Below, piece by piece: positions 39,242 to 51,148 of a stretch of DNA of 51,378 nucleotides. The notes under the pieces are model-generated. The model was not told the DNA's origin, searched no databases, and saw only the letters and a program-made list of their open reading frames with translations. The first letter of the stretch is position 1. The number at the start of each line of letters is the position of its first letter. Source of the stretch: a virus. Both the position numbers and the translations under genes were made by a program. The stretch covers positions 1 to 51,378 of the IMG/VR virus record IMGVR_UViG_3300046616_000291, one strand, 5' to 3'.

Positions 39242-39691
39242 TTAGTAAATCGTTTCTTTTGAAATCAAGTAATCTTCAATAATTCTGATAGCATCATCAT
39301 ATCCACAAGCGAACGTTGCGTAGTAGCCTTGCGCCCAAAGAGCATTGTGAACTTCTTTCTGTCGCTGCAAGTGCTCACTCTTCCTTAATTGGCCGGACTT
39401 AACAAAAATCTCGTCACGGCTATGCTTGAGTTCAAGAAACAGGCCGTGGTGGAACAGATTCGCCTTAGCAATGAACATATCGGGGAATCCTTTTCCTGAT
39501 TGCATCGCCTTGTTTTTCGTAGCCTGACCCATTGTAAGCTTCATTCCGCTTGCTACATCTGAATGAAAGATAATGTCAGGATGCTTCAACTTTAAGTACT
39601 GGGCAACCATAATTTGAAGCGATTCCTCTTTCTTTGATTTACCAGGTTTAAGGCTCTTTCGGTATTCGGAGGCGGTGATAACTTTTGTCAT
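39242..39691 (-). CDS. VRR-NUC domain nuclease
   Basis: 149 residues from MTKVITASEYRKSLKPGKSK. The VRR-NUC pattern is seen: an N-terminal helix with SLQIMVAQYLKLKHPDIIFH, then GKGFPDMFIAKAN (Asp ligand), LFLELKHS (Glu-x-Lys) and QRQKEVHNALWAQGYYATFA. These small PD-(D/E)XK nucleases in phages cut branched or replication-associated DNA. It is coupled by ATGA to the small membrane gene 39688-39858 upstream. Confidence 0.82.
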   Translation of the reverse strand: MTKVITASEYRKSLKPGKSKKEESLQIMVAQYLKLKHPDIIFHSDVASGMKLTMGQATKNKAMQSGKGFPDMFIAKANLFHHGLFLELKHSRDEIFVKSGQLRKSEHLQRQKEVHNALWAQGYYATFACGYDDAIRIIEDYLISKETIY

Positions 39692-39858
39692 AATTCTGGA
39701 GGTTTTAAATACCAAAGCACTAATGCGCCTATATAAACAATTGCTGATATGGAGCGGACATCTTTATCCCACTTAAAAGGATCAACATTGGCTTGAACAA
39801 ATGCAAATGCTAAATAAATTACCATGAGAATTACTAATGGGATAAAATATTTTTTCAT
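39688..39858 (-). CDS. Small membrane protein, 56 aa
   Basis: The frame begins MKKYFIPLVILMVIYLAFAF and ends LKPPEL; two hydrophobic helices (about 5-22 and 37-52) flank a polar stretch. Its stop overlaps the start of the VRR-NUC gene (ATGA), which supports translation. Function unknown. Confidence 0.65.
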   Translation of the reverse strand: MKKYFIPLVILMVIYLAFAFVQANVDPFKWDKDVRSISAIVYIGALVLWYLKPPEL

Positions 39859-40107: not shown

Positions 40108-40506
40108 TCAAAAAGGTAACGCAGAATCATCGCCCTGGTTATTCAGGAAATCCCCGTTACTTGGCTGTTGGGTAGCAGGTGGCTGTTGAATTGGCGGTTG
40201 TTGACCTTGCGATCCCGCAGCCCACATATTCCAAACGCTTAGTGTATTGAAACACTTCTTTTCGTTTGTATTTTTATCAAAGTATATTTTGCCTTTGATA
40301 TTCACTTTGCAGGTTACTAAATCGCCAGTTCTGAAATTATCAAGGCTATCACAAAGATTCGAGCTGACTTCCAAAAGATATGACTGTGGGAATTGCTCAC
40401 CTGTTTCCGTTACTATAAACTTTCGTTTGTAGTAAGTTTTATCCTGGTAGGTATTGATTTCAGTTTCTTTTACTGATTCCAGTATTCCGGTTATTTCTAT
40501 GTTCAT
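40108..40506 (-). CDS. Single-stranded DNA-binding protein (DUF3127-like)
   Basis: 132 residues from MNIEITGILESVKETEINTY. The OB-fold core (about 1-85, with KRKFIVTETG, GDLVTCKVNIKGKIYFDK) matches the DUF3127 group of Bacteroidota/phage SSB-like proteins. A Pro/Gln-rich linker (GQQPPIQQPPATQQPS) leads to the acidic tip GDDSALPF, the docking tail of SSB. The longer frame up to 40668 is rejected because its first 54 codons lie in another gene and read as junk. Confidence 0.85.
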   Translation of the reverse strand: MNIEITGILESVKETEINTYQDKTYYKRKFIVTETGEQFPQSYLLEVSSNLCDSLDNFRTGDLVTCKVNIKGKIYFDKNTNEKKCFNTLSVWNMWAAGSQGQQPPIQQPPATQQPSNGDFLNNQGDDSALPF

Positions 40507-40517
40507 TTTTCTGGTTT

Positions 40518-40682
40518 TTACTTGATTATTAAATTTTCTTTGTGGCAACTGAATGTTTCGCCCCGTGAATTTGTACACAGGTAAATATCCCCATGGTCGG
40601 TGTTGTATATTGTGACCTTTAAGCCTTTTGCTGCTACTATCCGGCGTGTATCCTTTGCGCCTGTCCACTTATCAATTTTCAT
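40518..40682 (-). CDS. Hypothetical protein, 54 aa
   Basis: The start MKIDKWTGAKDTRRIVAAKG is preferred; an ATG eight codons upstream is possible. Small basic beta protein ending HKENLIIK. It sits between SSB and a helix-turn-helix-like gene. Confidence 0.5.
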   Translation of the reverse strand: MKIDKWTGAKDTRRIVAAKGLKVTIYNTDHGDIYLCTNSRGETFSCHKENLIIK

Positions 40683-40924: not shown

Positions 40925-41756
40925 CGTTTGTAATTTGATCAGTAAAAAAATTATCAACGCCCTTTTCTGCCATCAACTCGAAAAAACGGAAGTACCTCAT
41001 TCGCCTGGCGTTGTTTACAATTCGTTTGTATTCAGATACAGGCAGCTCGTTGTTTTCTTCAAAATTTGAGTAGATTTTATAAATCTCACTTAAAGCTCCC
41101 TTGTCGCCCTTCTTTTTTGCTCCCTGTGTTTCGCGCCACACCTTCTCATTTTTTGACCGCAATAGCCACATATCCCATGATTCCAATGATTTTAAACCAA
41201 TAAGTCCAAACCGCCGGAGCAAAACATACTTACGGGCGATGAACGGAACAAATTCTTTCCCCATTTCTCTGAATATCCGATAGTCTTCCAGAATCCATTT
41301 TTTATAATCACCGATCGTCATTTTAACTGGAGCCTTTTGCTCCACCTTTTTTGCCTGCTCATAAGCTTCTTTTGCTATTCGTCTTTTTTCGGATTGTAGG
41401 TATCCTTCGATGAAAAACATAAAAGTCCTTGCATTCAGCCCGAAGTATTCGCCGTATTCATTGTAAATCCCATTTTTTATAGCAACCCTAATTTCTTCTA
41501 TTGTGACATGAGGGTAAAGATTAGTACACCTTTCGAGTATTTCATCGGCAAATACCATCATTTCGGGCGTTGTAATCTTTTGGCCTGAAATAGTAACCGC
41601 ATAAGCGACTATCGCCAGTATGTTGTTTGTTGCTTCCTTTGGGCTATAGGTGGATATACTTGGCATTAATGCAATGCGTATCATATCCTTTTGAGCCGGA
41701 TCAATATTCATTGCAGGAAGCATTGATTCTGATTTTATAATTCTATTGTCCTCCAT
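40869..41756 (-). CDS. Putative replication accessory protein (helicase-loader position)
   Basis: 295 residues. Helical protein with EATNNILAIVAYAVTISGQK, a YPHVTIEEIRVAIKNGIYNE segment and Lys-rich stretches (FMFFIEGYLQSEKRRIAKEA). It overlaps the initiator-like gene upstream by 14 bases, which is where phages code the helicase loader. No Walker motif is present, so it is not a DnaC-type ATPase. The assignment is positional. Confidence 0.45.
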   Translation of the reverse strand: MEDNRIIKSESMLPAMNIDPAQKDMIRIALMPSISTYSPKEATNNILAIVAYAVTISGQKITTPEMMVFADEILERCTNLYPHVTIEEIRVAIKNGIYNEYGEYFGLNARTFMFFIEGYLQSEKRRIAKEAYEQAKKVEQKAPVKMTIGDYKKWILEDYRIFREMGKEFVPFIARKYVLLRRFGLIGLKSLESWDMWLLRSKNEKVWRETQGAKKKGDKGALSEIYKIYSNFEENNELPVSEYKRIVNNARRMRYFRFFELMAEKGVDNFFTDQITNDGKEDNPATGGTGSDTER

Positions 41757-42516
41757 ATCGTATTTCGGTTAATCTTTGAGCTTCTTCCAGAGAAGATAGG
41801 TTTTGTGCTAATTTTGATTCAGTTGCTTTTGGCGAAGGATGGGATGTAAAAACATTCGCGCCGGATGGTTCGCTTTTTTTATTTTCCGGCTTAAACCAAA
41901 CAGAAATCATTTTTTGTTTCCAGTTTTTTACCTGATTCCCTTTGCTATCTTTCCATTTCCCGATGTCGTAGTAATTCCATGCTTTTTCTGCGGCCGGCGC
42001 GGTGTATCCTTTTTCTTCAAAATATTCTTTTACTTCGTCAAGTGTCGGAGGGTAGAAAATTTCCTCTTTTCTTATCTTCTTATCCTTCTTTACTTTCTTA
42101 TCTTCTTTCTCTTGTGTATCATTTGCGTTCCGTCTGCGTTCCGTCTGCGGTATTATTTGCGTTCCGTCTGCGGTATCATTTGCGTTTGTTAATTCTTGAT
42201 AAGTGTCATAATTACAGATAGTTATCCGTGTTGTAACCTTCATGTTTTCCGTGCTGATCATGTCGCAACTTTCTAACAATTTGAGGAACGCGGTTACAGT
42301 CGACTTTGTAGTCCTCCATCTTTGCGCCCAAGTCTCTAAAGAACGAACAGATTGGCCTCGGCCGCACTCTATCTTTTGACGGCCGATAATCACATCCTTA
42401 GGCTCGTAGTTGGCATTAATCAGGATGTCAAGCCACCACTTAAACCGGTTTGAATTTTCAGCCCAAAGCCAGTGATCCTGTATTTGCCTATGAATTTTTA
42501 TCCAGCCTACTGCCAT
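41743..42516 (-). CDS. Replication initiator-like protein (winged helix + DnaD-like end)
   Basis: 257 residues. The N-terminus (GWIKIHRQIQDHWLWA, FKWWLDILINANYEPKDVII, GQSVRSLETWAQRWRTTKST, VTAFLKLLE) is the winged-helix domain found in phage replisome organisers. A charged low-complexity linker (about 112-150) is followed by a C-terminal domain with PTLDEVKEYFEEKGYTAPAA and NWKQKMISVWF, common in DnaD/initiator-like phage proteins. The linker is coded by a GC-rich repeat array (42124-42188) that may be the origin. Confidence 0.7.
   Translation of the reverse strand: MAVGWIKIHRQIQDHWLWAENSNRFKWWLDILINANYEPKDVIIGRQKIECGRGQSVRSLETWAQRWRTTKSTVTAFLKLLESCDMISTENMKVTTRITICNYDTYQELTNANDTADGTQIIPQTERRRNANDTQEKEDKKVKKDKKIRKEEIFYPPTLDEVKEYFEEKGYTAPAAEKAWNYYDIGKWKDSKGNQVKNWKQKMISVWFKPENKKSEPSGANVFTSHPSPKATESKLAQNLSSLEEAQRLTEIRYGGQ
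42124..42188. repeat. Iteron-like repeats inside the initiator gene (candidate replication origin)
   Basis: TGCGTTCCGTCTGCG occurs three times, at 42124-42138, 42135-42149 and 42158-42172, with a partial copy TGCGTTTG at 42181-42188. The steps are 11, 23 and 23 bases, about one and two helical turns. A 60-base stretch with almost only purines on one strand (about 42060-42118) adjoins it. Iterons beside an AT-rich stretch within the initiator gene is the layout of the lambda origin inside gene O. Confidence 0.5.
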
Positions 42517-42535: not shown

Positions 42536-43759
42536 TTACTTGTTTAATTTATTCATTTGTTCTATTACCTTGAAAATCTGGTATGCAACCTGTGGGACTA
42601 TAGCGTTCCCGTGGGCTTTTATGGATTCTTTGATCCAGTTAGAAACGGTAATTCCGTCCAATTCGGCGGGAAGCCCATCATTTCCGATACAAACTGGGGA
42701 TTGAGTTGGGAAGCCTCTGAAGTCACTGATTTCATAATTACTGTCAGGCCAATTTGCTTCCCCATTTTTATTCTTCTCTGAATTGATGGGTCGTTCATGT
42801 TGCCCCGGTCCCGATTGTCCGATGCATTTGGAGTTGGCAACATTCCCCTCCTGCTCTGTTCCTGAAGTTGCATTCCGAATCCGTTCCCGTTTATTCCCTT
42901 TGCTTTGGCTTTTTCCCTTCGGGCTTGTATCTGATCCAAATCCTGTTTCCCGCCCGTGTCCATAACTGTTGGAGTTGGAAGTAATTTCTCTGGTTGCCTT
43001 ACCACAACATCCCGAAGGTTTGATAATTGGGTTCTGCCTGGTCTGGTTATTGTCATTTCCTTTAGAATCGCCTTGTCCGTTTTCGGAGCCATGTGATCCA
43101 TTGTTGTGGGTGTCGGTAGGAGCTTCGCAACTTCCGAAAGGTTCGCTCCTCTCAAACTGTTCTCCCGATAATATCCTCCGTTCACTCCCATTCTCACGCC
43201 GCCATGATTCCCGTTTGCGTCCGTAGTCCTCGCTGTAGGCAACAAACCAAACTCTATCCCTTCTGTGGGGAGCGTTGACGGCACAAGCTGGAAGTATAAA
43301 CGGTGTGACTTCGTAGCCGATAGCTTCCAGGTCAGCCTGCACTTCGTCGAATACCAATCCCCCGTTCCAATTAATAAGGCCGCGAACATTTTCGCCCACG
43401 ACCCAGGTCGGCTGAATCTCTCGTATGACTCTAAGCATTTCCGGCCAGAGGTGGCGGTCATCGTCCTTTCCAAGTCGTTTGCCTGCGACACTGTATGGCT
43501 GGCATGATCAAGGGAAGCCACCTGTGAGAACAATGTCATCTGTTCTCCAGTGGCTTCCGAATCTTTTTGTGAGTTCTTCATTTATTTTGTCGTAAGTGAG
43601 CGTTTTAATATCGTCGTGATGGTATGCATCTGGCCAGTAATAGGATAGTATTCTGTTACAGAATGGGTTTATTTCACAACTTGATAGATTGTCCCATCCC
43701 ATCCACTCAGAAGCGAGATCAAATCCTCCTTCTCCTGAAAACAAGCTTATGTGGTGCAT
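42536..43759 (-). pseudogene. dcm: C5 cytosine DNA methyltransferase interrupted in the catalytic PCQ motif
   Basis: One continuous frame of 408 codons carries a whole C5 methyltransferase except for a TGA at codon 84. Motif I is SLFSGEGGFDLA; motif IV reads TGGFP-stop-S-CQPYSVAG; then ENV (motif VI), APHRRDRVWFVA (motif VIII), a variable target-recognition region, and HGNAIVPQVAYQIF (motif X). Removing the six bases TGATCA (43505-43510) restores GGFPCQPYS exactly. As written, 83 codons are translated from 43759 and a second open part runs 43507-42536 (first ATG at 43436-43438). It is either a broken gene, a site needing read-through, or an assembly variant. Confidence 0.8.
42619..43581 (-). 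CDS. Alternative-frame ORF of 320 codons within the methyltransferase gene
   Basis: In a second frame of the same strand, MKNSQKDSEATGEQMTLFSQ opens 320 codons to LTGSKNP. It contains FSRPGSWAKMFAALLIGTGD, CRLTWKLSATKSHRLYFQLV, repeated LLPTPT segments, and LNPQFVSEMMGFPPNWTELP. I recall sequences of this kind being predicted repeatedly beside phage cytosine methyltransferases, but part of the conservation may simply reflect the overlapping methyltransferase codons. The TGATCA insertion that stops the methyltransferase is read here as Asp-His and leaves this frame intact. Confidence 0.4.
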   Translation of the reverse strand: MKNSQKDSEATGEQMTLFSQVASLDHASHTVSQANDLERTMTATSGRKCLESYERFSRPGSWAKMFAALLIGTGDWYSTKCRLTWKLSATKSHRLYFQLVPSTLPTEGIEFGLLPTARTTDANGNHGGVRMGVNGGYYRENSLRGANLSEVAKLLPTPTTMDHMAPKTDKAILKEMTITRPGRTQLSNLRDVVVRQPEKLLPTPTVMDTGGKQDLDQIQARREKAKAKGINGNGFGMQLQEQSRRGMLPTPNASDNRDRGNMNDPSIQRRIKMGKQIGLTVIMKSVTSEASQLNPQFVSEMMGFPPNWTELPFLTGSKNP

Positions 43760-44178
43760 CGCTTCCTCCCTTTTGTAAATTGGTTATTGTGTGGGGAGTA
43801 TTTACGGGTATGTTCTGATTTAGGGAGGCATTCAAAGTTTGAAACAACATTATTTGACTTATCCTCGTCAATGTGATGTATGTCCCATCCTTCTGGAATT
43901 ATACCAACTTCTTTCTCCCAAACATACCGGTGCATTAAGTCTCTGCCTTTATTAGAAAGGCGATAATATCCATCCTTTCGGCGTGTAAATTTATTACCAT
44001 CATACATTTTGAATGGCCGTGGAATAGGAGACCTAAGTGCGAATCCTCTTAATTTAAAGGATTTGAAAAGAGATTGTCTTGTGATTCCAAAATTCCTTGC
44101 TACACGTTGTACAGAAAGACCACTCTTATACAAATCATAAGCCTTATCAAAATCAGTGCAAACGTAATTTGCTTTCAT
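43747..44178 (-). CDS. HNH endonuclease (homing type) with N-terminal HTH
   Basis: 143 residues. An N-terminal helix-turn-helix (AYDLYKSGLSVQRVARNFGI, TRQSLFKSFKLRGFAL) is followed by an HNH_3 core: YRLSNKGRDLMHRYVWEKEV, GWDIHHIDEDKSNNVVSNFE, CLPKSEHTRKY. HH and N are the nuclease residues. It ends 13 bases inside the start of the methyltransferase gene. Free-standing HNH genes of this type are usually selfish elements that cut alleles lacking them. Confidence 0.85.
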   Translation of the reverse strand: MKANYVCTDFDKAYDLYKSGLSVQRVARNFGITRQSLFKSFKLRGFALRSPIPRPFKMYDGNKFTRRKDGYYRLSNKGRDLMHRYVWEKEVGIIPEGWDIHHIDEDKSNNVVSNFECLPKSEHTRKYSPHNNQFTKGRKRCTT

Positions 44179-45952: not shown

Positions 45953-46207
45953 CTATAATTTTATGGTTATTTCTTTTACTCCGAGCCTTTTTGCATAGGC
46001 AATTATTTGCTCGGTCTTTTCAGTTTGGCGGTTGTGCTCAATAGCTGAAAGATTGGAAGATGATCCGAAATGATCAGGACAGTAAGCCACCATTTCCTTT
46101 GTCATCATCTTCATTGACTTCCGGTATGGCCTCATTTGGGATATAAGCCCATTTTTAGCTATGTCCCGCCCATCCAGAATGATTTTAGTTATTGTGAATG
46201 GTGTCAT
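45953..46207 (-). CDS. Hypothetical protein, 84 aa
   Basis: A basic protein starting MTPFTITKIILDGRDIAKNG, with a Met/Lys-rich middle (RPYRKSMKMMTKEMVAYCPD) and a helix-strand end (AYAKRLGVKEITIKL). It overlaps the nuclease-translocase gene by four bases (ATGA), so the two are coupled. Role unknown. Confidence 0.55.
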   Translation of the reverse strand: MTPFTITKIILDGRDIAKNGLISQMRPYRKSMKMMTKEMVAYCPDHFGSSSNLSAIEHNRQTEKTEQIIAYAKRLGVKEITIKL

Positions 46208-48213
46208 GCTTCTACAGTTTCAGGTTTAAAGAATGCCTGGAATCTTACGATATCAGGATATTGGGGGGATCTTATCAGGCCGTCTCCCATTCCCGCCAGT
46301 GACTCCGCGCCAGCCTCATCAAGTACAACCTTAGAGTCAATTTCTTTTGGCACACGGAAACATATTTGTACAGGAAAGTTAACCTTAGCATCACCTGTAA
46401 TTACTTTTACTGATGCTCTTTGTGTAGCTGCCATTATCCTGAATCCACATGAACGCCCTTTTTGTAGTAGGATGCGAAGGTTTTCTTCAATATCTCCTTT
46501 TCGTGATTGGGCTACAGCGTCAGCAAACTCGTCGAATATTACTAAGGTCATTTCCTTTTGGCCGTTCCTGACAAGCTGATTCATGTGGTTTACTAACTTT
46601 TGCATGTACACTTCAATATCTTCAACCTCATTAATCACTATGTGCCGGTCATTGTATCGCAGGAATTCAAACTTTGGATCAAAAATGATTATGTTCTTTA
46701 TTCCTGCTTGCTCTGCATAGTCAATGGTGTTTGCGACTAAAACAGACTTTCCGGAACCGGTTGCACCACATACCAAGGCATGAGGCGTGGAGTGGTTGTT
46801 TAAATCCCATACAATGGTATTGTTGAAGTTATCCTTACCTAGTGGTATTGCCATCCCTTCCAGTTCGCCCGGATCAAAGTCCAAATTCTTTTCTCTTTTC
46901 TTTGAGAATTCAACCGGCATATATGATTTGCCTTCATGCACCCAAAGATTTGAAGGGATACGTACGCTTGAAACGTTCAAAGCATTGGCAATGTCAAGCC
47001 TTTTCCCGTATATAGATGTAATATTTACGCCTGCTGAAAAGGATAACAAGTAGGTGTTGCTGGAATATCCTTCAAATTGATGGGCAACGTCAACAAGGAT
47101 ACCTTTTGTTTTAAGGACATGCTCTATTTTTTCTTTTGGTGTCATATCGGTAGAACTTAAATTGTATTCAATAAATGAAGCGGCATATTTTTTAAATGCC
47201 TTAATTACTGATGGTGTTACTGTTTCTAATGAAGCGTCACGAATCTTTTTAAGTCTTCTGGCAACTAGTTCTTTTTTAGCTTCCGGCACATTAAAATCTT
47301 CAACTTCGCAATACATTGTCCTTGCCCAGAAATCGAACAATTCGGGACGGTCAACAAAATTATCCTGATCGTTAATAAGGAAAACATAATCAGGGTCTTT
47401 TGCAGCCTCAATCATTCGTTTCACCTTTTCGTAAAGGAGGGCTTCGTAAAGTCTACGAGTATTAAGATCAAGTGTAACCTTTATTGGAAGTAATTGCGGG
47501 ATTGAAGCATCTTTGTTCTGGCTGTATTTATTCTCTACAAACCAAACTTCGTCTACCTCTATGCCGTACTTTGATTCAAAGGCCAATGTGCAGGAACATG
47601 CTTGGGTGCCAATAATCATTGCTGCCTCTTCATCATCAGTGAAGGTGCTTTTTGATTTATGGTCAATAATCACAATCTTCCCATTTTTAAGTTTTACAGC
47701 CAAATCAACTACACAGTGAAGTGGAAGAGGTATTTCGACACCATTAAGAACCACATATTCATTATAGTACTTTTCAACATCAAGTATTTCCGATACTTCA
47801 TCTATGTAAGTTTTCATCTCACCATAGAAGTTTTTAAGTAGTAGCGTAACTGTTTTAGCTGCCTTAGTTTTACAATCTATAACCGATGGGGTTGTCTTCT
47901 GTAACTTCCATTGATTGGCCGGCACTTCGTCAATGTATTCAAATGCAATATGCTCTAAAACAGGTAAGTCGGTTTTAACCCCATCCTTAAACTGTGAAAA
48001 GAAAAAGTCAAGTGAACGATGGTAAGCAGATCCGGCTTCGGTAGTTGCGGAAGATTTGCCCCTTATGCCACATACGTACTGCATTTCAAATGCCTTTTCG
48101 TTACGTGCGAATGTTGATACTTTTGAGTACGACCAACTATCAACCAGAAAATTGCTATTGATTTCTTCTAACAATTCTGGTTCTTTTGTCTTATATGATG
48201 ATTGTGGGATCAT
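46204..48213 (-). CDS. Fused PD-(D/E)XK nuclease and FtsK/HerA-type translocase
   Basis: 669 residues with two enzymes. N-terminal (about 25-260): a RecB/Cas4-like nuclease with AGSAYHRSLDFF (His of motif I), CVVDLAVKLKNGKIVIIDHK (Asp about 167, Asp-His-Lys about 182-184 as motif II/III) and TQACSCTLAFE (Gln motif). C-terminal (about 440-665): a FtsK/HerA-superfamily ATPase with Walker A GATGSGKSV (about 482), Walker B LVIFDEFAD (about 557), and ATQRASVKVITGD / GAESLAGMGDGLIR as in FtsK motors. There are no membrane spans, and the C-terminus is too short for a gamma DNA-reading domain. It is coupled by ATGA to the Sak4-like gene. I infer a role in DNA end processing. Confidence 0.85.
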   Translation of the reverse strand: MIPQSSYKTKEPELLEEINSNFLVDSWSYSKVSTFARNEKAFEMQYVCGIRGKSSATTEAGSAYHRSLDFFFSQFKDGVKTDLPVLEHIAFEYIDEVPANQWKLQKTTPSVIDCKTKAAKTVTLLLKNFYGEMKTYIDEVSEILDVEKYYNEYVVLNGVEIPLPLHCVVDLAVKLKNGKIVIIDHKSKSTFTDDEEAAMIIGTQACSCTLAFESKYGIEVDEVWFVENKYSQNKDASIPQLLPIKVTLDLNTRRLYEALLYEKVKRMIEAAKDPDYVFLINDQDNFVDRPELFDFWARTMYCEVEDFNVPEAKKELVARRLKKIRDASLETVTPSVIKAFKKYAASFIEYNLSSTDMTPKEKIEHVLKTKGILVDVAHQFEGYSSNTYLLSFSAGVNITSIYGKRLDIANALNVSSVRIPSNLWVHEGKSYMPVEFSKKREKNLDFDPGELEGMAIPLGKDNFNNTIVWDLNNHSTPHALVCGATGSGKSVLVANTIDYAEQAGIKNIIIFDPKFEFLRYNDRHIVINEVEDIEVYMQKLVNHMNQLVRNGQKEMTLVIFDEFADAVAQSRKGDIEENLRILLQKGRSCGFRIMAATQRASVKVITGDAKVNFPVQICFRVPKEIDSKVVLDEAGAESLAGMGDGLIRSPQYPDIVRFQAFFKPETVEA

Positions 48214-49157
48214 GGCAGTTCAATTTTAAGTTGTGATCCTTCCTGACGTTCTGCAAGCTGTTCCTGAGGTGTTTGGTCTGCTTCCTTAGCCTGGCGTTCA
48301 TATTCACCTGCGGCTTCCTTACACATGTTTTTATGAGCTTCTACTTTTTTCTTTTGAGTAGGTGTAAGTGAATTCCAAATTGTTACAACCGCATCAATTC
48401 CTGATTCGCAGGCCATCAGCATTTCAGACTTAATCTTTTCTATTACTGGATCAGGCTTTTCCCCTTCGTTAATCCATTGGATAATCTTTTGGCCGGTTTC
48501 TAACCCAATGTACCCGGTACCCGTTCCGAATGCATCTTTCAGAAATTCAGGCACCTTTGTAGGGTATTGCGTCTTTCCTTCATTGTACATCATTATCGAA
48601 GCAGTCATTTCAAACATGAAGTTCTTTTCGCAAATCGGCTGCATGCCTAATGATACTGGCTTCATTGGGTCTTTAAAGTCCGTCTTTTCACGGGCGCGAA
48701 TGCAGCAAATAACATTCATATTGCATTGAAGCAAGGTATTCATGAAGCTTTTGTGCTCACGTTTTGCACCGATCCAGTTTGCCATTTTCTTACCGGCCTT
48801 TAATGGAGCGTTTGCAATATCATCACAGCCTCCTTCCCCTTCCCATTCGTGGGATGTGCTGTCAATAACCAATACTTTAACGCCTGCATCCTGGAATTCC
48901 TTTATAGCGTCACTGTATCGCTTTGGAGAGAAAGGCGGGTACAGATCACCAATCATAAACTCTCCATCGAGTATGTCGGCATAAAGCGAACCACGCTTAT
49001 TTTCGGTGTCAAGAAAGCCAATTTCAGATGCTTTGTTTACCATGCCTCTGGCTATCAATAAGGCGGTAAAAGTTTTGCCTGATCCGGATGGTCCGGCGAT
49101 CCCAATAATGGCTTTGCTGCCGCCCCTTGTAGCAGGGCGAATGTTTAAAATTCCCAT
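48210..49157 (-). CDS. Sak4-like RecA-fold ATPase (single-strand annealing recombinase)
   Basis: 315 residues. RecA-like core of the AAA_24/Sak4 group: Walker A AGPSGSGKTFTALLIA (22-29), a GFLDTENKRG acidic site, Walker B VLVIDSTSHEWEG (95-99) and NVICCIRAREK as the sensor strand. The C-terminal 90 residues form a helical extension (PTQKKKVEAHKNMCKEAAGE), then a Gln/Glu-rich tail. Phage Sak4 proteins promote single-strand annealing, usually with SSB (here 40108-40506). It is directly before the nuclease-translocase gene. Confidence 0.85.
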   Translation of the reverse strand: MGILNIRPATRGGSKAIIGIAGPSGSGKTFTALLIARGMVNKASEIGFLDTENKRGSLYADILDGEFMIGDLYPPFSPKRYSDAIKEFQDAGVKVLVIDSTSHEWEGEGGCDDIANAPLKAGKKMANWIGAKREHKSFMNTLLQCNMNVICCIRAREKTDFKDPMKPVSLGMQPICEKNFMFEMTASIMMYNEGKTQYPTKVPEFLKDAFGTGTGYIGLETGQKIIQWINEGEKPDPVIEKIKSEMLMACESGIDAVVTIWNSLTPTQKKKVEAHKNMCKEAAGEYERQAKEADQTPQEQLAERQEGSQLKIELP

Positions 49158-50426: not shown

Positions 50427-50669
50427 TTAATCGGAATTTGGTTCAGGTGAATTAATAATGGATTCGATGTTTAATTTAAAGTCTTCGCCTTGTTGAGGCT
50501 GTTCAGAACATAGTTGGCGTTGTTCTTTGCATTTTAGTTTGGCGTATTCAACAGCGGAATCGTAGTAAACTTTATTTATTTCAAAGAAGCAATTTGTTGA
50601 CAAAAGGTCAGATACTAATTTATAACCTCTTGCATTGCATTTTTTAATAATTATGTCTGATAGCTTCAT
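50427..50669 (-). CDS. Conserved phage protein, 80 aa
   Basis: MKLSDIIIKKCNARGYKLVS and VYYDSAVEYAKLKCKEQRQL resemble a short family repeated in Bacteroidota phages (a helix, then YxxVxEYAKLKCxEQR). It overlaps the preceding gene by four bases (ATGA). Function unknown. Confidence 0.6.
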   Translation of the reverse strand: MKLSDIIIKKCNARGYKLVSDLLSTNCFFEINKVYYDSAVEYAKLKCKEQRQLCSEQPQQGEDFKLNIESIINSPEPNSD

Positions 50670-51148
50670 TGCATGTTATATTTAGATAGTAAGTGATTTT
50701 CTCCAAGGTATTCCCATACGTATCCACGACAAGTTTTTCTAGCCTTAGTGAGCGCGGATGAAATACTCCCTTGGTGTATTCCCGTCTTTCTTACGGCATC
50801 AGACACCGATTTAAATTCCATAATTAATTCGCCATTCAAAAAGGCTCCTATCTTTCTGGCAAATAGTATTTTGAATTCCATCCTTTGCTTGTATTTGTTT
50901 TCTTCCCATGTAAGACAGTGTACATTTTCCATAGAATATCCTTTTTTGCAGTTTATTCTATCCACTGTTGGCTTCTTTTCCTTTTTATATCCTGCTGCCA
51001 CCCATTCATTAAAAAGCCTATTAAATCGCTTGTCCGATAGAAATCTTTCGTGTAACTCATTCAGAGTATAGTAAACAGGTTTTCTTGATTTTTGATGTTG
51101 AAAAGAGTTTGTGAGAATTCCCTTTTTTGTTGTTCTATATTTTAGCAT
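50666..51148 (-). CDS. NUMOD1-containing, HNH-associated DNA-binding protein
   Basis: 160 residues. The middle has KKPTVDRINCKKGYSMENVH and CLTWEENKYKQRMEFK, as in phage HNH-associated proteins that recognise DNA. The C-terminus (GELIMEFKSVSDAVRKTGIH, SISSALTKARKTCRGYVWEY) is a NUMOD1 unit. No full HNH triad is visible, so it may be a DNA-binding relic or a divergent nuclease. Confidence 0.65.
   Translation of the reverse strand: MLKYRTTKKGILTNSFQHQKSRKPVYYTLNELHERFLSDKRFNRLFNEWVAAGYKKEKKPTVDRINCKKGYSMENVHCLTWEENKYKQRMEFKILFARKIGAFLNGELIMEFKSVSDAVRKTGIHQGSISSALTKARKTCRGYVWEYLGENHLLSKYNMQ

Follow-up and report, generated by a model that had tools for sequence, protein, structure and literature searches.

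We propose that the locus described here encodes a two-component phage recombinase of the strand-annealing type, in which a fusion of a RecB-type nuclease with an FtsK motor takes the place of the usual lambda-Exo/RecE exonuclease and the DNA would be handed over by means of a short C-terminal tail on the annealing protein. We put the probability of this reading at a little over three in four. The case is made by comparing the window (the whole 51,378-nucleotide stretch of viral DNA analysed here) with related loci, with respect to the pairing of the genes, the swapping of partners, the exclusion of other exonucleases, the association of the tail with the fusion, the folds and the conservation of motifs.

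The two central genes, encoding proteins of 669 (P0001) and 315 (P0002) residues and joined by a 4-bp ATGA overlap, are present as an earlier note on this DNA had described them (Table 1). The same note had placed SSB and VRR-NUC genes in the region. The former is there, as an SSB-like DUF3127 gene; for the latter no VRR-NUC match was seen in Pfam, and the gene matched a Holliday-junction-resolvase PHROG instead. Two further features of the neighborhood deserve mention: a C-5 cytosine methylase (42536-43759) is apparently split over two reading frames of 83 and 300 residues, perhaps a frameshift or a decayed gene, and the region is flanked on both sides by HNH_3 and NUMOD-type homing-endonuclease-like genes (43747-44178 and 50666-51148).

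Table 1. Features of the fusion locus, in window coordinates.
Feature	Position	Strand	Evidence
P0001, RecB/AdnA-type PD-(D/E)XK nuclease + FtsK alpha+beta motor (predicted), 669 aa	46204..48213	-	Pfam, phmmer, AlphaFold, VIA-align, 115 full-length homologues
P0001 nuclease half, residues ~22-300: H65, E147, D170, D184-H-K186, Q204	47314..48150	-	PDDEXK_1, AdnA Z 16.3, Foldseek ACE1, conservation
P0001 FtsK alpha+beta motor half, residues 357-669	46207..47145	-	Pfam, phmmer, VIA-align
P0002, Sak4-like AAA_24 RecA-fold ATPase, 315 aa, phrog_1366	48210..49157	-	Pfam, PHROG, phmmer
ATGA stop/start overlap of P0002/P0001, 4 bp	48210..48213	-	same 4-bp overlap in 68/111 relatives
Codons of the P0002 C-terminal tail I-E-L-P-COOH (shared [LM]P tail)	48213..48224	-	
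SSB-like protein, DUF3127/phrog_4932 (context)	40108..40668	-	Pfam, PHROG
Holliday-junction-resolvase-like nuclease, phrog_824/5702 (context)	39242..39715	-	PHROG
DnaD-like helicase loader (context)	41743..42516	-	PHROG

The nuclease-motor fusion and its distribution

The larger protein is a fusion of a predicted nuclease of the RecB/AdnA/Cas4 type with an FtsK motor. In Pfam, residues 25-194 match PDDEXK_1 (1.1e-8), residues 454-544 FtsK_SpoIIIE (4.2e-10) and residues 358-434 FtsK_alpha (1.5e-4, slightly below the cutoff); against the PDB sequences, phmmer finds the FtsK motor at 3.5e-28. The AlphaFold model, made with an alignment of 89 relatives, has a pLDDT of 90.4 and a pTM of 0.54, meaning that the halves are each well predicted but their relative placement is not. 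When this model was compared with solved structures by VIA-align, residues 15-299 aligned to the AdnA nuclease (Z 16.3, rmsd 3.9, 241 aligned), so that the nuclease fold for which a structure-prediction check had been suggested is indeed found; the Cas4-like ACE1 is among the Foldseek matches of the same half. Residues 358-669 aligned to the motor of E. coli FtsK with Z 33 (rmsd 2.6, 306 aligned), as against a Z of only ~20 for HerA. Of the nuclease-FtsK/HerA fusion originally proposed, the fusion itself, the nuclease fold and an FtsK motor with its alpha domain thus stand, and the HerA type is ruled out. The HerA-NurA model falls with it, the motor being FtsK-type and the nuclease RecB/AdnA-type rather than NurA-type. 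Compared with chromosomal FtsK, the protein begins with a nuclease instead of a membrane part, and, since the chain stops with the motor at residue 669, it has no C-terminal gamma (KOPS-reading) domain.

The motifs of both halves can be followed through the 115 full-length relatives. Nuclease motifs of a RecB/Cas4-like type were recognized at the outset near residues 64, 167 and 182-184; the positions of the RecB-family signature H...D...DxK...QxxxY are corrected here to H65, D170, D184-H-K186 and Q204xxxY208. The alpha+beta motor, described earlier as soluble, has Walker A (GATGSGKS, 483-490) and Walker B (FDEFAD, 560-565) motifs that are conserved in all 115, as expected of an FtsK/SpoIIIE motor. 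Residues G61, Y64, D170, D184, K186, Q204, G483, G488 and K489 are the same in all 115, and H65 is kept in 113/115, the divergent pair L047/L157 having both H65D and E147N. In the window protein itself Cys208 replaces the tyrosine of QxxxY, the sole such case among the 115 homologues. In one relative (L158:3784-6684) the Walker A motif is interrupted exactly at GATG|SGKS by a 276-aa intein that contains an HNH endonuclease domain.

The search for the same fusion in other phages, proposed in the earlier note, yielded these 115 relatives from scans of IMG/VR and GTDB genomes. Nearly all belong to Bacteroidota phages or prophages, with named hosts such as Chitinophaga, Flavihumibacter, Flavobacterium, Chryseobacterium, Tenacibaculum, Dysgonomonas and Muribaculaceae; the fusion also occurs in a verrucomicrobial Puniceicoccaceae strain and in a small number of MAG bins that bear the labels of other phyla. 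INPHARED has no phage record that matches P0001 over 80% of its length. The homologue scans showed no case of separate nuclease and motor genes in place of the fusion, and the motor-only matches (L054-L096) were rejected as split versions: they have no nuclease match and most resemble ordinary large FtsK proteins.

Partner genes and the exonuclease slot

The claim that the upstream gene of the window encodes a Sak4-like protein is borne out. P0002 has a predicted RecA-like core with Walker motifs, matches RecA at 2.7e-11 among the PDB sequences (phmmer) and matches Pfam AAA_24 above the cutoff (1.8e-10), this being the family used to define Sak4 (PMC8093625); its best PHROG is phrog_1366, and its match to the Sak4-like phrog_124 is weak.

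A plausible partner lies directly upstream of the fusion in 113 of the 114 loci with a readable upstream gene (L141 has none), and in most cases the two genes share a 4-bp overlap. In each cluster a single representative was given its family name, which BLAST and HMM searches then carried over to the other members. Recognized annealing proteins account for 48 of the partners (RecT phrog_148, 17; RecT-like phrog_561, 16; ERF, 6; Rad52/Sak, 6; Bet-like, 3), and the remainder are Sak4-like (18), phrog_3657 (43), an unassigned family (3) and a singleton (1). Sak4 therefore co-occurs with the fusion (18/113) but is not its exclusive partner, and a Sak4-specific partnership is ruled out. Absence of Sak4 from the relatives, offered earlier as grounds for refutation, is too narrow a criterion because the slot is also taken by RecT, Bet-like, ERF, Rad52/Sak and phrog_3657 proteins. 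RecT, ERF, Rad52 and Sak are held to form one remote superfamily (PMC8093625), so that "dissimilar" is used here in the sense that most of the families showed no sequence similarity to one another; RecT phrog_148 and the Bet-like proteins are related, and there are two folds in all.

That phrog_3657 and the two small families are annealing proteins is in part an inference, drawn from their position, their relatives and a moderate fold match. The predicted phrog_3657 structure has RAD52 as its top VIA match (Z 8.3, 133 aligned, rmsd 4.6), followed by Mgm101, Sak and Redbeta, all with moderate Z (8.3 and below), and Foldseek gave no E-value below 0.001; profile-profile comparison did not link phrog_3657 to the RecT, ERF or Rad52 families. 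Its relatives include proteins annotated as RecT-like ssDNA binding proteins that adjoin a RecE-like exonuclease (Mycobacterium prophage), and 17 of the 18 fusion-free relatives in IMG/VR have an exonuclease-like reading frame nearby.

To follow the partners through time we used a quick tree (LG+G4) of 112 of the 115 fusions, 107 of them different. This tree requires at least 29 changes of partner class, as compared with 62 for shuffled labels, implying that a class is kept for some time yet frequently exchanged. The cleanest swap is between L130 and L132: over the fusion region they share 97.8% DNA identity, yet one has a phrog_3657 partner and the other a RecT-like phrog_561 protein, and identity resumes at ATGCCATGA, which comprises the Met-Pro tail codons and the start of the fusion. 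In both, an array of repeats spaced at 24 bp precedes the gene for the annealing protein (L132:2606-3429, L130:3040-3335), the surroundings being near-identical and the L132 array longer.

The exonuclease genes of these loci give a sharp distribution. Searches with iterative home-made profiles, seeded with YqaJ and with the ExoVIII/DUF3799/RecE proteins found beside fusion-free partners, detected at least one lambda-Exo/ExoVIII-like gene in 237/260 fusion-free loci with the same annealing families and, the fusion itself aside, in 0/115 fusion loci; neither did the YqaJ/ExoVIII-type profiles find anything in the window. These counts hinge on the profiles, and the flanks extend up to 3-10 kb per side, so the exclusion is a local one. 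The fusion-free Sak4-like relatives, for instance, adjoin YqaJ or DUF3799 exonucleases. The distribution indicates that the fusion occupies the exonuclease slot of a two-component phage recombinase, and at the gene level an exonuclease-type gene (the fusion) does adjoin an annealing-protein gene. Thus the view that, in more than 100 loci, the predicted nuclease-motor stands in for the lambda-Exo/RecE-type exonucleases beside annealing proteins is strongly supported by comparison, as is the more general part of the earlier proposal, namely that a single polypeptide would perform resection and feed an annealing protein; the part that made this protein specifically Sak4 is not (18/113).

Could the fusion have a different role? 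Defence nucleases have repeatedly captured HerA/FtsK motors (PMC10853773), and it might be a DndH-like restriction nuclease with a captured FtsK/HerA motor, directed against invaders and merely lying beside recombination genes. The near-constant pairing with annealing proteins in unrelated phages and the local exclusion of lambda-Exo-type genes make this very improbable, and chance adjacency would not yield the tails common to the partners that are described below. The role in DNA degradation or exclusion of rivals that had been entertained earlier likewise finds no support in the present comparison. As FtsK motors move duplex DNA, the motor could also process or move concatemers for packaging or segregation, with the annealing protein only producing them. 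We consider this improbable too: the window phage encodes a terminase and head proteins of its own on the opposite strand, whereas the fusion sits among replication and recombination genes and occupies the exonuclease slot.

The shared C-terminal tail of the partners

The partners have a common ending, with a consensus of approximately K-x-[DE]-[LM]-P-COOH across dissimilar families. Of the 113 partners, 87 end in [LM]P, versus 8/1189 other reading frames of the same loci, and the next-to-last residue is Leu or Met in 110/113, versus 9.7% of those other frames. In most of the 26 tails that differ from [LM]P, the residue after [LM] is L, M, K or A. There are preferences for K at -5, P/V/I/L at -4 and D/E at -3, and a polar stretch rich in K/Q/N/S/G precedes the tail. 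Two other proteins of fusion loci (L139:5017-5775 and L103:13174-13890), neither with a PHROG match, end in DLLP; they are either further clients of the tail or chance.

An exact 4-bp overlap, as in 68/111 pairs, fixes the last base before the stop codon, and the tail might accordingly be a by-product of the ATGA overlap with no protein signal. This seems hardly credible. All six Leu codons, all four Pro codons and three stops are in use, the penultimate residue is free of the overlap constraint, and of the nine partners that lie 37-1590 bp away from the fusion, six still end in [LM]P and eight in [LM]-x. Codon use and the separated genes largely rule out an overlap artefact. In one locus an HNH homing-endonuclease-like gene (L134:7474-8001) lies between the annealing gene and the fusion, and the MP tail is retained.

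Among genomes the fusion is a rarity, with just 1/296 of the phylum matching at E<1e-100 (the centre genome), and the reciprocal, fusion-free test was therefore run on IMG/VR. In this separate retrieval, for which the queries were annealing proteins alone from five families (the phrog_3657 query being alignment A7), [LM]P ended 26 of the 30 proteins with a fusion nearby, new fusion loci such as L289 and L328 among them, and 0/256 of those without one. This rules out the tail as a general trait of the Sak4-like, RecT, ERF or phrog_3657 families. On the fusion tree, tail type (P or not) changes 10 times, whereas shuffling it within each partner family gives 20.6 changes on average. Because partner and fusion are inherited together within a clade, this association is partly one of common descent; nevertheless, clades of mixed partner family that share non-P tails (L010/L011/L015/L016/L044) are consistent with recognition by the fusion. 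Alignment columns varying with tail type, as candidates for a docking pocket, were only phylogeny-confounded ones.

The best reading of these sequence patterns is that the tail is a portable docking plug that would couple any annealing protein to the nuclease-motor. We lean, with rather less assurance than for the locus as a whole, towards a broader proposal: a [DE]-[LM]-P-COOH code would allow a single nuclease-motor to accept annealing proteins of at least six families and two folds (RecA-like and Rad52-like) as interchangeable clients, each family having acquired the code independently when it became paired with the fusion, and different codes (e.g. D[DE]LF-COOH) may be read by other phage exonucleases. 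The recombinase role could be the same and the [LM]P tail nevertheless bind a third partner, i.e. SSB, a sliding clamp, the replisome or a protease. Several repair proteins are docking sites for C-terminal peptides, SSB tips among them (PMC5928155; PMC7496540), other tails such as DDLF or DELF occur on fusion-free RecT relatives, and the binder could be some other protein, of the phage or of its host, that accompanies the fusion. We regard this as unlikely, given that same-family proteins without the fusion lack [LM]P (0/256) and that tail type tracks the fusion clade. Among the fusion-free phrog_561 RecT proteins (L433-L451), SSB-like or clamp-like tips such as D[DE]LF and DDDF are frequent and may constitute a further code of this kind.

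Proposed mechanism, known systems and significance

The system would work as follows. The motor would assemble as a ring on duplex phage DNA and, moving along it, would drive the nuclease at or towards an end, where one strand would be degraded. The exposed strand would pass to the annealing protein, in the window the Sak4-like ATPase, probably aided by SSB, the handover being effected by the tail plugging into the fusion from its polar linker. By analogy with lambda, the docked protein would load onto the new single strand, and the fusion would thus act in phage recombination or replication. Confining recognition to the tail would make dissimilar annealing proteins exchangeable. A point against this explanation is that lambda-type resection works without a duplex-DNA pump; such a pump might serve to strip proteins off the end, to make cutting processive or to keep the nuclease on phage DNA.

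Several known systems share parts of this arrangement. In Lambda Red (lambda Exo + Redbeta) and RecET, an exonuclease gene likewise adjoins a strand-annealing gene, and tail docking is proposed by analogy with the C-terminal domain of Redbeta, which contacts and binds lambda Exo (PMC7496540). The fusion loci differ in having a RecB/AdnA-type nuclease joined to an FtsK motor, and partners from several dissimilar families with a short common tail rather than a folded C-terminal domain. AdnAB, AddAB and RecBCD also join a RecB-type nuclease to a motor, and the nuclease half of the fusion aligns to AdnA, but here an FtsK duplex-DNA motor takes the place of the SF1 helicase, in one 669-aa polypeptide with an annealing-protein partner. 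In HerA-NurA a ring ATPase of the FtsK/HerA class works with a nuclease as two proteins, in contrast to the one chain found here with its FtsK-like motor and RecB-type nuclease. DndH and other FtsK/HerA capture systems do have nuclease and motor in one chain, some with FtsK-alpha (PMC10853773), but they are large defence proteins with other domains and no annealing partner described. Finally, the Sak4 of phage HK620, whose ATP-dependent annealing is stimulated by its cognate SSB (PMC5928155), resembles P0002 in its AAA_24 match, Walker motifs, RecA-like core and the SSB gene in the region; P0002 differs in its PHROG assignment, in ending in ELP and in being followed by the fusion gene. None of the papers covered by our literature search describes the fusion, the partner slot or the tail.

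These results identify a likely exonuclease partner of the annealing proteins of many Bacteroidota phages and suggest that phrog_3657, listed as of unknown function, is a Rad52-like annealing protein. A short tail that can be moved from one protein to another could provide a way of pairing recombineering proteins with a nuclease, also in Bacteroidota, for which few recombineering tools are available. For the phages themselves, the tail would offer a rule by which they may exchange their annealing proteins while keeping their nuclease.
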